DNA of 64,000 bases from Methanomassiliicoccaceae archaeon DOK. Its GTDB lineage: Archaea > Thermoplasmatota > Thermoplasmata > Methanomassiliicoccales > Methanomethylophilaceae. Numbering within the stretch: position 1 is the stretch's first letter; each line of letters starts with the position of its first letter. The translations under genes and the position numbers were made by a program. The notes beneath the pieces are model-generated. The model saw nothing but the letters and a program-made list of their open reading frames with translations. It ran no database searches and was not told the origin of the DNA. Positions 34,645 through 42,187 of the stretch are shown piece after piece. Location of the stretch: the NCBI GenBank assembly GCA_009911715.1, contig CP047880.1, positions 62,001 through 126,000 of the forward strand, written 5' to 3'.

Positions 34645-35865
34645 TCACTCGGAAGCGGGCTCTTCCTTCTTGGGTGCGGTGACCTCGAGGAGAACCTGGG
34701 ACAGGTCCATCACCTTGATCTTGGACCCGATCTTCTTGGCTCCCTGGGTCAGGTTGAGCACGCAGAAGGGGCAGCAGGTGATCAGGATCTCGGCACCGGT
34801 GGCCTCGGCGTCCCTGATCCTCTCGGCCGCGACGTTGGTGGCGAAGTCGTTGAACTGGGACTTGTAGCCTCCTCCGGCTCCGCAGCACCTGGAGTTCTCC
34901 CTGGACCTCTCCATCTCGACGAACTCGACTCCCTTGATCTTCTTGATGACGTTCCTGGGAGCGTCGAAGACTCCGGAGTGCCTTCCGAGGTGGCAGGGGT
35001 CGTGGTAGGTGACCTTGTGCTTGAACTCGTTGTTGAGGGGCAGCTTCCTGTCGTTGATCAGCTGCTCGACGTACTGGGAGAAGTGGTAGACGTTCTGTCC
35101 GACCTTGGCGTAGTACTTGCCGAAGTCGGTGGAGACGGTCTTGTAGCATCCGGAGCAGGTCATGACCATGTCCTTTCCTCCGATTCCGTCGGCCTTCTCG
35201 ACGACGGTCTCGGCGCAGCCCAGGGACTCGGTCTTGGTACCGGTCCTCAGCAGGGGCGAGGAGCAGCACCACTCCTTCTCTCCGAGGCAGTTCATCTTGA
35301 CGCCGGCCCTGGAGAGCACGATGACTCCGGCCTGGGCGATGTTCTGCATCCTGTAGGATCCGGTGCATCCGGCGAAGAAGATGACGTCGGCGGGGACGTG
35401 CCTCTCGACCTCCGCGGGCCACCAGGCGTCCCTCTTGGAGGGGGGCTCGCCGTAGGGGTTGTGGCACTCGGCGACCTTGGCGGCCATTCCCTTGTGGGCG
35501 GAGAGGGGTCCGGCGCCGTTCTCGACGATCCAGGCCCTCATGTCCTCCCAGAAGTCCACCAGGTGGATCTGGGCGTGGCACACGACCTCGCAGTTCCCGC
35601 AGCCGGTGCACTTGTACATGGCGTCGACGAACTCGGGGCTCAGGCTGACCTCTCTTCCCAGCAGGCCGTCCAGCGCTCCGGTTCCGGCCTTGTCGAGCTG
35701 GTTGACGTAGTAGATCTTTCCTCTGGGGGTGACGGACTCCCAGGGGGTCTGGTTGTGCGCCTCGCAGACGTCGATGCAGTATCCGCACTGCAGGCATGCG
35801 GTCAGCACCTTCTGCACGCGGGGGAGTTTGATGAACTCGGGTTTCTTGATGTTGATCTCTACCAT
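34645..35865 (-). CDS. hdrD: CoB-CoM heterodisulfide reductase subunit D (HdrD)
   Basis: A 406-residue Fe-S protein. Two [4Fe-4S] ferredoxin motifs lie in the N-terminal quarter (CLQCGYCIDVCEA and CTGCGNCEVVCHA). Two cysteine-rich CCG domains follow, including FFAGCTGSYR, EWCCSSPLLR, MTCSGCYKTV, YHDPCHLGRH, SRCCGAGGGYKS and CCPFCVLNL. HdrD reduces the CoM-S-S-CoB heterodisulfide, the terminal step of methanogenesis. An in-frame start at 35925 exists, but ATG 35865 has GGAGGAT 8 nt upstream and lies about 50 nt after the start predicted from the TATA element (TTAAATAT, minus strand, about 35938-35945), so it was chosen. Confidence 0.92.
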   Translation of the reverse strand: MVEINIKKPEFIKLPRVQKVLTACLQCGYCIDVCEAHNQTPWESVTPRGKIYYVNQLDKAGTGALDGLLGREVSLSPEFVDAMYKCTGCGNCEVVCHAQIHLVDFWEDMRAWIVENGAGPLSAHKGMAAKVAECHNPYGEPPSKRDAWWPAEVERHVPADVIFFAGCTGSYRMQNIAQAGVIVLSRAGVKMNCLGEKEWCCSSPLLRTGTKTESLGCAETVVEKADGIGGKDMVMTCSGCYKTVSTDFGKYYAKVGQNVYHFSQYVEQLINDRKLPLNNEFKHKVTYHDPCHLGRHSGVFDAPRNVIKKIKGVEFVEMERSRENSRCCGAGGGYKSQFNDFATNVAAERIRDAEATGAEILITCCPFCVLNLTQGAKKIGSKIKVMDLSQVLLEVTAPKKEEPASE

Positions 35866-36033
35866 GTTGCCGATCCTCCGGACATGTACGGCGGCCTTCC
35901 GACGGGTCGCCCGTTTCTGCTTCATCCAAAGTCACGGGATATTTAACCATTATAGGAGGGTGCTCTTGCCCGGCGCCCGGGGGCCCCTTGGAAAATGAGA
36001 TTGAATGAGATAACGTCCATCAGCGGATGACAC

Positions 36034-37986
36034 ATGATATACGTCCGTGGCACCATCCAGCAGACCGGAGGGATCGGCTTGGACATAACGCGCAGGGTCT
36101 TCGGAGGGAGGGCTGTGACGGTGTACTCATTGGGCGTCGATCGCGCCCCGACGGTGTACGTCAGCATGTACGAGGAGGCGGGCGCCGCCGTGGTCTCCCG
36201 CTGCACGGAGCTCGGATGCCCGGCGTTCAATCTCGTCTCGGTCTCCGGCCTGGACTGGAACAGGGATCTCTCGCCCTGGCCGGCCGACCCGGTCATGAAC
36301 GGCGGGGAGGGGTTCTCCGGCGGCGCCGATGATTACATGGGGTTCCTCGTCGGGGACGTGGTCCCCTACGCGGAAGGCATCCTGGGCGGAGGCGACAGAG
36401 TCATCGCGGGCTACTCGATGGGCGGGCTTTTCGCCGTGTACGCGCCATTTGTCACCGATGCCTTCTCCGCCTGCGTGTCCGCATCCGGGTCGCTCTGGTA
36501 CCCCGGTTTCGCCGAGTTCGCGGAGTCGCATCCGTTCAGGTCGAGGCCGAGGTCGGTGTACCTGTCCGTGGGGAGCAGGGAGCACCGCACGCCGAACCCA
36601 GTCATGCGCACGGTCAACGACTGCACGTCCCGCATCCTCGACCGCTGCGTGTCCGAGGGCATTGAGGCGGTGTTCGAGACCAATCCCGGCAATCACTTCA
36701 GGGACGGGGACCTGAGGCTCGCCAGGGGCATAGCATGGACGCTCTCCAGGCGAGGGCCCCATTATGTAGAGGCACGCCGATGCGGGACCATGAGTGCCCC
36801 TAGGCTTTACGAGGACTGGACCGGCAACATCGTCAACGGAGCCGACATCAGAAGTCTCGACCCGGGGGCGGTCAGGGCCGCAAGGGCGGCGTTCTGCGAG
36901 AGGTTCCCCGACCGCGCCGAGGAGAGCGCGCAGTGGGACGACGTCACGTTCCTGTCGAGGGCAGGGGTCTTCAAGAGGGGCAAGGTCACCGTCGCGGCGC
37001 TGATTCTGCTCGGGAAGCCGGGCGAGCGCATGATTCCGTCGTCTGTCTGCATCAGGTGGAGGCTCCTGGATCCGGACGGTTCCGTCATCGACTCCAGGAC
37101 GTTCGAGGGTCCGGCCGTGCTCACGTCCACCCACGCGGTGTCCATGATCAGGAACTGGTCGTGCAGGGTCGGACCGGAGGGTTCCGAGTCCGTCGTGAGC
37201 GCCTACCGCACCGCGACGCTCCTGGAGGCTGTCAGGAACGCCGTCGTGCACCAGGACTACGGTCTCGGGGGCACGGTGGAGATCGTCGAGCGGGAGAACG
37301 AGTCCGTCACCGTGATCAGCATGGGCTCTTTCCCCGACCGCAGCCCGGAGTCCTTCGTCACCGGTCCGCCTCCGGGTGCGCCTCGCAGGAACGCCTTCCT
37401 GTACAACGCCATGGCCGGTCTGGGGATCATCCCGGCCGCCGGCAGCGGCATCAGGTCCATGTACCTCTCCCAGGCGCATCGCCGCTTCCCGATGCCGGAC
37501 TTCGACATCCTCGGGGAGAGGGTCGCCGTGAGGCTCTCGGGTCTGAGGGGAGGGTCATACGCGAGGGTCATGGACCTGCGCGGGGATCTGGACCTGAAGT
37601 CCGTCATGGACCTTGACCGCGTGGCTAAGAACCGCTATGTGCCAGACAGGCGTCTCAAGGCGCTCGTGAGGAGGGGGCTGGTGGAGATGATCGGCGACCT
37701 GCCGTGCATAGCCTCCGGAGCCGGCCAGGAGGTAGCATCGGCGTACACGTCCGGAACCGACCAGGACGCTGTGATGGGGCTCATCCGTTCGAAGGGCTAC
37801 GTCACACGTTCGGACGTGGCGGAGGTCCTGGCGTCCAGGGACGGGAAGGGGCTCACCGAGGAGCAGCTCAGGGTGAAGGCCACGAACCTCCTCCAGACCA
37901 TGAGGAAGGCGGGGATGGTCCGCAAGGCGGACGGAAGCACAAGGTCCGCGAGGTACATAGCCTCGGACCCCTCTCGCAGTGATTAA
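36034..37986 (+). CDS. Alpha/beta-hydrolase esterase fused to HATPase_c_4/winged-helix module
   Basis: One continuous 650-codon frame with two unrelated parts. Residues 1-240 are an alpha/beta hydrolase resembling enterobactin-esterase-like enzymes: nucleophile elbow GYSMGG (Ser near 128) and a late His in NPGNHFRDGD (about 220). Residues 265-560 match the ATPase/regulatory part of AlbA_2-type proteins: LLEAVRNAVVHQDYGLGGTVEI, SMGSFPDRSPESF and GSGIRSMYLS. Winged-helix segments close the protein (VTRSDVAEVLASRDGKGL). The AlbA_2 domain itself is absent. I know no described protein with this architecture. Ends TAA, unlike most neighbours. Confidence 0.8.
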   Translation: MIYVRGTIQQTGGIGLDITRRVFGGRAVTVYSLGVDRAPTVYVSMYEEAGAAVVSRCTELGCPAFNLVSVSGLDWNRDLSPWPADPVMNGGEGFSGGADDYMGFLVGDVVPYAEGILGGGDRVIAGYSMGGLFAVYAPFVTDAFSACVSASGSLWYPGFAEFAESHPFRSRPRSVYLSVGSREHRTPNPVMRTVNDCTSRILDRCVSEGIEAVFETNPGNHFRDGDLRLARGIAWTLSRRGPHYVEARRCGTMSAPRLYEDWTGNIVNGADIRSLDPGAVRAARAAFCERFPDRAEESAQWDDVTFLSRAGVFKRGKVTVAALILLGKPGERMIPSSVCIRWRLLDPDGSVIDSRTFEGPAVLTSTHAVSMIRNWSCRVGPEGSESVVSAYRTATLLEAVRNAVVHQDYGLGGTVEIVERENESVTVISMGSFPDRSPESFVTGPPPGAPRRNAFLYNAMAGLGIIPAAGSGIRSMYLSQAHRRFPMPDFDILGERVAVRLSGLRGGSYARVMDLRGDLDLKSVMDLDRVAKNRYVPDRRLKALVRRGLVEMIGDLPCIASGAGQEVASAYTSGTDQDAVMGLIRSKGYVTRSDVAEVLASRDGKGLTEEQLRVKATNLLQTMRKAGMVRKADGSTRSARYIASDPSRSD

Positions 37987-38012: not shown

Positions 38013-39026
38013 ATGAACACCAAGGACGAGATCGTGGATGTTTTCGATGACCAGCCCGGAGACGGCTGCCCACCTCCCGCCGTGTTCACGCAGACCGGGA
38101 CTGCCGGACAGATGATGGCGTGCGGCGCGTACTGGCCGGACGCCAACTTCGACGCCAGGGGAATGGAGGCCCTGGCACTCCAGTTCTCAAGGCAGTTCGG
38201 TTTCGCCACAGCCAGGGTCCCGTACTGCCTCACCGTGGAGGCCGAGAGGCTGGGGGCGACCGTGTCCCCCGGCAGGGACAACTCCCAGCCGAGCGTCGTC
38301 GACTCGCCCTTCAGGACAGGGGACATGGTGCCGGGGCCTGTGCCCGACGACCTGATCACGCCGGACGAGTTCGTCTCGGGAGGCCGCTGCGCCATGGTGG
38401 CCGAGGTCGCTGGCAGGATCATGAGGGATCACGAGGACCTGTTCGTCACCGCTGGCATGCAGGACCCCTCATGCGTTGCCGGCCAGATCCTCGGGGCGGA
38501 GAACATGATGATGGGATACATGCTGGATCCCGACGCCGTGAGGGCATGGGTTGACGCGATGGTTCCCTACACCTGCGCCTACGGGAAGCTTCTGTCGGAG
38601 AACGCTGACAACGTCACGGTCATCGCGGCGGCGAACACAGACCTCTACTCCCCGGAGATGTACGCCGACCTCACCGAGTCCCAGCTCAGGAGGACGCTGT
38701 CGTCCATCTCATGCTTCAGCACGATTCATTCATGCGGTCGTTCGTTCGATTTCATCGACAGCCTGGTCACCCTGGGGGCCGACGGCCTCAGTCTGGAAGC
38801 TTCCCACGAGACGGACAAGTACATGGAGCGGGTGGCGGGCCGCTGCAAGATGTTCGGGACGGTGAATCCTGTGCAGACACTGCTTATGGGGACTCCTGAG
38901 GACGTCGTCGCAGAGGCCAGAAGGTCCGCGGTCGCCGGTTTCGACATCATCACGCCGGAGTGCGGGGTTCCGCCGATGACCCCGGACGCGAATCTGCTTG
39001 CACTGTCGCAGTATCGCGAGCGCTGA
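38013..39026 (+). CDS. MtaA/MtbA-type methylcobamide:CoM methyltransferase (UroD family)
   Basis: A 337-residue member of the uroporphyrinogen decarboxylase superfamily, methyltransferase branch. The zinc ligands of MtaA/MtbA are present: HxC in IHSCGRSFDF and the distal Cys in TPECGVPP. TIM-barrel blocks GADGLSLEASHE and MFGTVNPVQTLLMGTPEDV fit. These enzymes move the methyl group from a corrinoid protein to coenzyme M in methylotrophic methanogenesis. No corrinoid protein or substrate-specific methyltransferase is adjacent, so it is an orphan copy here and its substrate branch is open. TATA-like GATTAAAAG at about 37981 lies near 30 bp upstream. Confidence 0.85.
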   Translation: MNTKDEIVDVFDDQPGDGCPPPAVFTQTGTAGQMMACGAYWPDANFDARGMEALALQFSRQFGFATARVPYCLTVEAERLGATVSPGRDNSQPSVVDSPFRTGDMVPGPVPDDLITPDEFVSGGRCAMVAEVAGRIMRDHEDLFVTAGMQDPSCVAGQILGAENMMMGYMLDPDAVRAWVDAMVPYTCAYGKLLSENADNVTVIAAANTDLYSPEMYADLTESQLRRTLSSISCFSTIHSCGRSFDFIDSLVTLGADGLSLEASHETDKYMERVAGRCKMFGTVNPVQTLLMGTPEDVVAEARRSAVAGFDIITPECGVPPMTPDANLLALSQYRER

Positions 39027-39848: not shown

Positions 39849-41090
39849 ATGATCGTTGATGTGAAGTACGGCAAGGACGGGATCCAGAAGGTTGAGATCC
39901 CCGACCAGAACTATATCGGCACGTTCTACCCCAAGGACGTCGAGTGCGGTGACCCGGACGAGGTCATCGGCGAGTCCATCGACAACCCCATCGGCTACGA
40001 GTCGATGGAGGATTTCCTGAAAGGAGGGGAGGACGTGGTGTTCATCGTCAACGACGGAACCCGCCCCACACCCACCGCGAAGGTCCTGGACGCTCTCTCC
40101 AAGAGGATGGACCTCAGGTCCGCCAGGTACCTCATCGCCACCGGGACCCACAGGGACATGACCCCCGAGGAGTACGACTTCGTCTTCGGGTCGCACTACG
40201 AGGAGCTCAAGGACCGCATCATCTGCCACGACGCCAAGAACTCCGAGTGCGTCTACCTCGGGGCGTCGAAGAACGGCACCCCGATGGAGGTCAACAAGGT
40301 GGCCGTCGACGCGGACAGGCTCATCATCATCACGTCCGTCGAGCCCCACTACTTCGCAGGGTACACCGGTGGGAGGAAGTCCTTCCTGCCCGGTGTGGCA
40401 TCCTACAGGACCATCGAGGCCAACCACAAGCTCGCCATGAGCATGGAGGCCCAGTCCCTGGCCCTCAAGGGGAACCCTGTCCACGAGGACATGATGGACG
40501 CACTGGAGGTCGTGAAGGACAAGGCGATCTTCTCCATCCAGATGGTCCTCGACAGGCATCAGAACATCTACAAGGTGGCCTCCGGAGCCCTCAACCCCGC
40601 CTTCGAGAAGGCAGTCGGATGGGCGAACGAGGTATTCTCCGTGCCCATCCCCGAGAAGGCGGATGTCGTCATATCCGTGGCGCCGTACCCCATGGACGTC
40701 GACCTCTACCAGTCGCAGAAGGCTCTGGACAACGGGAAGTGGGCCCTCAAGGAGGGCGGGAAGATCATCATGGTCTCCAAGTGCAGGGAGGGGATCGGCC
40801 ACGCCACGTTCCTCACCCAGCTGTCGAGCTCCAAGGACCCCAAGCAGGTCCTGGAGAACCTCAGGGCCGAGTACAAGCTCGGATACCACAAGGCCGCCAA
40901 GATGGCGGAGATCGCGACCTGGGCCTCGATCTGGGCGGTCACCGACCTGGACCCGGAGCTCCTCAGGAATGCGAACATCACCCCGTTCCCGACCGTCGCC
41001 GACGCGATGGCTGAGGCGTTCAGGGAGAACCCCGACGCCAGGGTGATGGTGCTCATGGACGGTAGCGTCACAATACCGAGGTTGGAATGA
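39849..41090 (+). CDS. LarA-family (DUF2088) nickel-dependent racemase homologue
   Basis: A 413-residue LarA-like protein. Conserved blocks seen: VFIVNDGTRPTPTAKVLD, ATGTHRDMTPEEYDFVFG, VEPHYFAGYTGGRKSFLPG (with the His and the Lys that holds the nickel-pincer cofactor in LarA) and the long helix FLDR-like region. LarA interconverts lactate enantiomers; relatives act on other 2-hydroxy acids. ATG 39849 fits the TATA box better than ATG 39831, which would lie before the transcription start. The stop overlaps the next gene by 4 bp (ATGA). The cofactor genes larB, larC and larE are not in this window. Confidence 0.85.
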   Translation: MIVDVKYGKDGIQKVEIPDQNYIGTFYPKDVECGDPDEVIGESIDNPIGYESMEDFLKGGEDVVFIVNDGTRPTPTAKVLDALSKRMDLRSARYLIATGTHRDMTPEEYDFVFGSHYEELKDRIICHDAKNSECVYLGASKNGTPMEVNKVAVDADRLIIITSVEPHYFAGYTGGRKSFLPGVASYRTIEANHKLAMSMEAQSLALKGNPVHEDMMDALEVVKDKAIFSIQMVLDRHQNIYKVASGALNPAFEKAVGWANEVFSVPIPEKADVVISVAPYPMDVDLYQSQKALDNGKWALKEGGKIIMVSKCREGIGHATFLTQLSSSKDPKQVLENLRAEYKLGYHKAAKMAEIATWASIWAVTDLDPELLRNANITPFPTVADAMAEAFRENPDARVMVLMDGSVTIPRLE

Positions 41091-42187
41091 ACATGTCGGA
41101 ATTCAAGGTAGACAAACTCGAGGAGGTTAGGAAGGCGGTCAACTGCTGCACAATGTGCGGCTTCTGCAAGAGCGTCTGCCCCTCCTTCAAATCGATCGGA
41201 TGGGACTCGGCCCTCTCCAGGGGACGCATCGTGCTGACCTACGGTCTCCTCACCGGAGACCTCCAGCCGGACGAGTCCCTCGTCAGGAACATGTACACCT
41301 GCACCACCTGCGCGGACTGCGTCCGCAGGTGCCCCTCCAAGGTGGAGATCGTAGACATCATCGAGATGTGTCGCGCCGACCTCGTCAAGGCCGGATGCAT
41401 CCTGCCCAAGCACAAGGCGATGTGCGAGAACATCCTCGCCGACGGCAACCCGTTCGGAGAGAAGCAGTCCAGGGAGGAGGCCCTCGGCAAGAAGCCGCAC
41501 GCGGCGAAGGTCGGGTACTTCGCCGGATGCACCGCCACCTACAGGTCCACGGAGACCGCAAGGGCCACGATGTCCATCCTGGACAAGCTCGGCGTCGACT
41601 ACACCACCCTGGACGAGACCTGCTGCGGCTCCGTCATGCAGAGGGTAGGATGGCCCCAGGAGGACGTCACGAAGCTGATGCAGAAGAACGTCGAGGCCAT
41701 CAAGGCGATGGGCGTCGAGACGCTCGTGCTCTCCTGCGCCGGATGCTACAGAATGTTCAAGATCGAGTACCCCAAGTACGTCGACGTCCCCTTCGAGGTC
41801 CTCCACATCACCGAGTACCTCGCGAGGATGGACCTCAAGCTGAAGCCCATGTCCGGCGTCGTGACGTACCACGACCCCTGCCACCTGGGCAGGCACTGCG
41901 GCGTGTACGAGCCTCCGAGAGAGGTCATCGCCAAGATCCCGGGGATCGAATTCAAGGAGATGGACTTCAACAGGAAGACCAGCCACTGCTGCGGAGGCGG
42001 CGGAGGCGTGAGGTCCGCCTACCCCGAGGAGTCCATGGACATCGCATCCACCAGGCTGGACGAGGCCTCGTTCGCGGACGTCATCATCACCACCTGCCCC
42101 TTCTGCGTCAACAACCTCGACGCCGCCAAGGGGGACAGGAAGATCCAGGTGAGGGACCTCGTCGAGATCATCGACGAGCTCCTCTGA
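41087..42187 (+). CDS. HdrD/GlpC-like Fe-S oxidoreductase with two CCG domains
   Basis: A 366-residue protein with two ferredoxin motifs (CCTMCGFCKSVCPS and CTTCADCVRRCPS) and two CCG domains: YFAGCTATYR, DETCCGSVMQR, LSCAGCYRMF, TYHDPCHLGRHCG, SHCCGGGGGVRS and TCPFCVNNL. It is a paralogue of HdrD at 34645 but with GlpC/lactate-oxidase-like spacing. Its gene overlaps the larA homologue, so the pair may oxidise a 2-hydroxy acid or pass its electrons on; this is inference. ATG 41093 is an alternative start. Confidence 0.88.
   Translation: MNMSEFKVDKLEEVRKAVNCCTMCGFCKSVCPSFKSIGWDSALSRGRIVLTYGLLTGDLQPDESLVRNMYTCTTCADCVRRCPSKVEIVDIIEMCRADLVKAGCILPKHKAMCENILADGNPFGEKQSREEALGKKPHAAKVGYFAGCTATYRSTETARATMSILDKLGVDYTTLDETCCGSVMQRVGWPQEDVTKLMQKNVEAIKAMGVETLVLSCAGCYRMFKIEYPKYVDVPFEVLHITEYLARMDLKLKPMSGVVTYHDPCHLGRHCGVYEPPREVIAKIPGIEFKEMDFNRKTSHCCGGGGGVRSAYPEESMDIASTRLDEASFADVIITTCPFCVNNLDAAKGDRKIQVRDLVEIIDELL

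Follow-up and report, generated by a model that had tools for sequence, protein, structure and literature searches.

The second half of a 650-codon open frame in Methanomassiliicoccaceae archaeon DOK probably encodes a transcription regulator of an hdrD-like and a glcD-like gene, which would act through an 18-bp direct repeat, AATGAGANNNAATGAGAT, and repress its own synthesis. This small putative regulon around the second half of the frame, and not the fusion, is the valuable finding in the window, the 64,000-nucleotide stretch of contig CP047880.1 that was analysed. Judged by comparison with its relatives, the apparent fusion protein is two adjacent genes merged by one missing stop codon in the genome of one gut methanogen. 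The second-half gene, which carries a HATPase_c_4 domain and a probable winged helix and no AlbA_2 domain, is named HAT here. HAT probably regulates heterodisulfide-reductase-type genes, because a rare motif marks its promoter and theirs genus-wide. The names hdrD and glcD are based on CCG/Fer4 and on FAD_binding_4/FAD-oxidase_C domains, respectively, with NCBIfam matches (TfrB, GlcD) below cut-offs. The coding features of the locus are as follows.

34645 to 35865, minus strand: hdrD-like iron-sulfur gene with two CCG domains and Fer4_17, divergent from HAT.
36115 to 36780, plus strand: esterase-like hydrolase gene; probable start GTG at 36115, alternatives at 36034 and TTG at 36079; codon 36778-36780 is CGA.
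36790 to 37986, plus strand: HAT, proposed regulator of 398 aa, native start ATG at 36790; free-standing in 24 of 28 loci; 28 orthologues were aligned.
37300 to 37536, plus strand: HATPase_c_4 match in HAT (Pfam), residues 171-249.
37750 to 37968, plus strand: probable winged helix of HAT, residues 321-393, from structure model and structural alignment.

Translation of positions 36034 to 37986 on the plus strand gives 650 codons without a stop, bearing out the open frame that the earlier note had read as an esterase-HATPase fusion; however, the closest relatives, G023 and G014, have separate genes. When 60 genomes (the window genome and its relatives) were searched with the entire frame, G023 was the sole other genome to match it over almost its whole length (residues 2-645), the match containing two TGA codons. 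G023 is the nearest relative, its HAT being 92% identical to that of the window, and its junction reads GCA AGG TGA, then TGC GGG ACC ATG, against GCA CGC CGA TGC GGG ACC ATG in the window. The missing stop is thus codon 36778-36780, which lies between the two reading frames and is CGA in the window and TGA in G023; a stop missed at the junction, with two genes in relatives, is what the earlier note had named as evidence against its fusion. In G014, the next nearest relative, the hydrolase stops earlier and in another frame, overlapping an upstream extension of the HAT frame. Conservation does not extend to the ATG at 36034: in G023 the hydrolase frame has as its first start a GTG that matches window position 36115 and is preceded by GGAGG. 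A survey for the same architecture recovered a single continuous hydrolase-HAT frame from the window genome only, which is one of 147 genomes of the order (HAT as query, 60 of them also searched with the whole frame) and one of 389 in a phylum sample, and a conserved hydrolase-regulator fusion was rejected on these counts. The genus has two other long HAT frames (G028 and G021), which were discarded as additional fusions since they extend downstream of HAT and contain no esterase match. False positives are discussed in an archaeal fusion survey (PMC11237513).

At best the fusion is a recent loss of a stop codon confined to one genome, and at worst it is a base error. An assembly error at 36778, with TGA as the true codon and no fusion at all, is somewhat unlikely. 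It would account for the one base by which the window and G023 differ in the 13 bases spanning the HAT start; however, the genome is assembled as a single, highly complete contig, and adjacent bases of the same codons also differ between the two species, so divergence is to be expected.

HAT alone matches PF13749 (HATPase_c_4) with an E value of 9.4e-6 and 26 bits, exactly the cut-off of 26, and the whole frame reaches 25.1 bits against the same cut-off, which makes the match borderline; the 28 orthologues all match PF13749 at E<=1, the best at 5e-9. N-box and GxGIR-like motifs are conserved across the orthologues; ATP binding by this GHKL-like domain is putative. Pfam matches to a winged helix in the C-terminus are weak and all under cut-off. 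Structure prediction gave poor models (mean pLDDT 47.3 for each half), in which residues 321-393 of HAT are the best-modelled stretch and align with winged-helix chains at Z scores up to 8.0, a borderline value. A C-terminal winged helix is likely on this modelling, one helix within it is well conserved, and action of the second half on DNA, for which the earlier note had proposed DNA or RNA, is also likely.

The assignment of this half to the C-terminal part of AlbA_2-type proteins is upheld by a profile match to PDB 3lmm (E 1.9e-5), by alignment of the model with residues 174-575 of 3lmm (Z 8.0, yet at an rmsd of 11.8; supporting evidence only, as the model is weak) and by a distant homologue, L030, that combines SLFN_AlbA_2, HATPase_c_4 and HTH_24 domains. 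HAT is collinear with AlbA_2/Schlafen proteins (PF04326 plus PF13749; PDB 3lmm from Corynebacterium diphtheriae) in the HATPase_c_4 region and the probable C-terminal winged helix, and it keeps their N-box and GxGIR-type motifs. Unlike these proteins, all 28 HAT orthologues lack an AlbA_2 domain, and HAT has a fixed divergent partner, hdrD, and a proposed conserved operator. AlbA_2/HTH proteins usually appear under COG2865 as predicted transcriptional regulators. Replacement of AlbA_2 by the hydrolase, another part of the earlier reading, was rejected as unsupported: no HAT orthologue matches AlbA_2 (PF04326) in Pfam at E<=1, a threshold at which L030, as control, does match, and 24 of the 28 loci carry no insert, so that AlbA_2 is missing without any hydrolase. 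Redox sensing through an invariant cysteine was considered and rejected, as no cysteine is invariant among the 28 orthologues (best 23/28).

Named relatives with the second half include Candidatus Methanomethylophilaceae and other Methanomassiliicoccales/Thermoplasmata records (L031-L036). At E<=1e-60, HAT has matches in 29 of the 31 genus genomes; a single genome from outside the genus, G093, also passes this threshold (E 2.2e-62, 34% identity). The two genus members without HAT, G002 and G015 (61% and 88% complete), also lack an hdrD orthologue, and the locus has therefore probably just not been assembled. Outside the genus, matches at E<=1e-30 sit in frames of 556-746 aa, and weaker matches include shorter frames such as one of 410 aa in G099; the domain check of outside proteins covers one, L030, in which AlbA_2 is present.

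The proposed regulatory elements around HAT in the window are as follows.

35940 to 35946, minus strand: TATA-like box of hdrD (TATTTAA on the plus strand), separated from the repeat by 46-48 nt at every one of the 28 loci.
35994 to 36011, no strand assigned: proposed operator AATGAGATTGAATGAGAT, a direct repeat with a 10-bp period; exact match, with its genus and order distribution as support.
36761 to 36768, plus strand: ATTATGTA, remnant TATA-like box of HAT, kept in the window, G023 and G014, 21 nt before the ATG and inside the hydrolase frame.

The 18-bp repeat lies between hdrD and HAT. Exact copies number two in the genome of the window and 36 across the 31 genus genomes, 27 of them between hdrD and HAT (L001-L027) and nine upstream of glcD; the reversed pattern, used as control, has no exact match in the same 31 genomes. 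Among the 147 order genomes searched, the exact repeat is present in 28 of 31 genus members vs none of the 116 others. With one mismatch allowed, 44 of 50 sites are at hdrD/HAT or glcD, and the six elsewhere comprise one orthologous site in the three members of the window clade and three singleton-like sites. A two-mismatch criterion was abandoned, because 57 of 60 relatives then match and specificity is lost. The orthologous one-mismatch site (G000:C1:684930-684947, L051; also L114 and L115) lies near two ORFs, one short and Cys-rich and the other radical-SAM/SPASM-like, by eye a candidate RiPP locus; on its other side, in the window genome and G023, is a gene beginning MFGYTVPAYGRLSP or similar.

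HAT is divergent from the hdrD-like gene in all 28 loci. The hdrD ORF is open from 35925, its relatives starting at MVEI.. (35865), and it matches Pfam CCG with E 1.2e-33 and, as the best of its NCBIfam matches, TfrB with E 1.6e-60, all NCBIfam matches being below their cut-offs. The 46-48 nt between repeat and hdrD TATA-like box are maintained in 28 of 28 loci despite a poorly conserved spacer. The hdrD genes of nine genomes from other genera have no such repeat upstream, the best candidates showing 5-7 mismatches; five of these nine have an upstream neighbour that is NifS-like by eye. Of the 25 genomes evaluable at the unlinked glcD gene, 18 have a repeat with at most two mismatches, a level that 0.04% of shuffled upstream regions reach, and 16 of these 18 have no more than one mismatch; the remaining seven evaluable genomes (G001, G005, G006, G017, G025, G026 and G029) have no glcD repeat. 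The distance from repeat to glcD TATA-like box is 21 nt (nine loci) or 24-27 nt (eight loci) in the 17 of 17 measured, and the orientation of the repeat relative to the gene is the same at glcD and hdrD, the exception being the opposite orientation at glcD of G016. G015, the genome at 88% completeness in which HAT was not found, keeps a one-mismatch repeat at glcD. The constant spacing between the repeat and the TATA boxes that follow it at hdrD and glcD points to activation of these genes.

In the loci without an insert, the repeat AATGAGANNNAATGAGA(T) is followed directly by a TATA-like stretch, clear in 20 of 24 and weak by eye in L020, L021, L022 and L024. A HAT start codon lies 24-31 nt past the repeat in 23 of these 24 loci, G011 having none there, and this distance, with the TATA between, fits a leaderless transcript. 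The position of the repeat against the TATA box of HAT would be consistent with auto-repression.

Another, unlinked regulator could bind the repeat, with HAT itself as a further target, since adjacency is no proof of binding; adjacency together with common ancestry within one genus could account for the co-occurrence of repeat and HAT. This alternative appears unlikely, however, given the divergent arrangement of regulator and target at all 28 loci, the probable winged helix of HAT with its conserved helix, and the restriction of both the repeat and close HAT orthologues to the genus.

At the 24 other genus loci HAT is free-standing, and the flanking sequence retrieved there contains no match to the hydrolase. 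The window, G023 and G014 have the repeat upstream of the hydrolase, with no TATA following it. With the repeat upstream and ATTATGTA downstream, the hydrolase sits between operator and TATA box, and the end of its frame is therefore the old HAT promoter. The best reading of this arrangement is that the hydrolase gene was inserted between the proposed operator and HAT in this three-member clade. In G006, the repeat is 736 nt from the HAT start and a different ORF, 258 aa long and by eye carrying a membrane anchor and an InlB-like repeat, occupies the same slot between operator and HAT (L050 1366-2142, G006:C69); it represents a second, independent insertion at the same place as the hydrolase. 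On the 3' side of HAT, the window contains a URO-D protein related to MtaA/MtbA methyltransferases (38013-39026, plus strand), also matched beside HAT in G023, G014, G020 and G008, and, some 3 kb further on from HAT, another iron-sulfur ORF that is by eye HdrD/GlcF-like (41087-42187, plus strand, 366 aa).

As the earlier note had it, the first part of the frame contains the GYSMGG elbow and resembles esterases. Its score against PF00756 (Esterase) is 20.7 bits for the hydrolase part alone (E 3.9e-4) and 18 bits for the whole frame, both under the curated cut-off of 22; PDB 6guo matches the hydrolase part with E 2.1e-4, and the best structure match of its model, a poor one with mean pLDDT 47.3, is EstB (E 6.0e-5), these model matches to esterases serving as supporting evidence only. 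The hydrolase is like IroE/EstB-type siderophore esterases (PDB 6guo, 6gud; NCBIfam PRK10439.1) in its GxSxGG serine elbow and overall resemblance, however the similarity is weak, under the PF00756 and PRK10439.1 cut-offs. Both genes are under purifying selection, with dN/dS of 0.178 (window-G023) and 0.284 (against G014) for the hydrolase and 0.055 and 0.105 for HAT. Hydrolase homologues are also located elsewhere in several genomes with insert-free HAT loci, and free-standing ones occur at unrelated places in many genus members (for example G028:C8, G009:C30 and G030:C1:562106); comparison by eye of the surroundings of eight of these revealed no common neighbour. Nothing was found in favour of the hydrolase as an input or sensor domain, and a functional fusion in the window species, with the hydrolase lending the regulator an enzymatic or sensing role beside or instead of free HAT, is very unlikely: the frame is open, the hydrolase is under purifying selection between species and all three clade members retain GYSMGG and the histidine motif NPGNHF, but the fusion occurs in one genome, both closest relatives have separate genes, HAT retains its ATG and TATA-like box, and the linker is the old HAT promoter and leader.

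In the proposed scheme, HAT would be the older gene, with an ancestral layout in which the repeat stood directly against its TATA box. The winged helix of HAT would bind AATGAGANNNAATGAGAT, switching the divergent hdrD and the distant glcD and repressing HAT itself. The GHKL-like domain is the likely input, and we infer a nucleotide- or heterodisulfide-linked signal. In one small clade the esterase-like gene would have arrived between operator and TATA box, and in the window genome its stop would then have changed from TGA to CGA, giving the single open frame. As the window clade has no TATA next to the repeat, self-control of HAT is doubtful there. The case illustrates how an apparent fusion may originate, by a gene landing inside a promoter followed by stop loss.

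An HdrD-like protein has been proposed to take part in energy conservation in Methanomassiliicoccales and others, and for Verstraetearchaeota a complex of HdrD with GlcD has been put forward (both in PMC6783470), while hdrD without hdrE is described for three genomes of the order (PMC4153887). The glcD of the genus (e.g. L043 3-2747) is about 915 aa long with two FAD_binding_4 stretches, most outside genomes matching its C-terminal ~530 aa only. PMC11619418 describes the coupling of methanogen gene control to heterodisulfide and ATP supply as largely unknown even in Methanosarcina, and implicates MsrC. The Methanosarcina Msr regulators, such as MsrC, resemble the HAT proposal in tying regulation to heterodisulfide reduction in a methanogen, however they are described there (PMC11619418) for methyltransferase genes, whereas HAT is proposed for hdrD and glcD. 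No paper was noticed on an hdrD regulator in the order or on AlbA_2-less HATPase_c_4 proteins in a search that covered mainly openly available papers and in one part returned mostly work on Alba chromatin proteins, which is weak evidence of absence.

More tentatively, HAT may found a group of AlbA_2-less GHKL/winged-helix transcription factors that sense the energy or heterodisulfide state by way of the nucleotide-binding-like domain and coordinate the unlinked hdrD and glcD of these methanogens. A putative two-target regulon and its probable regulator can be read from sequence; the regulon links hdrD with glcD, and both its 18-bp site and the 398-aa protein are open to direct testing. If the proposal is true, the shared operator would be independent genetic evidence for cooperation of HdrD and GlcD in this order.
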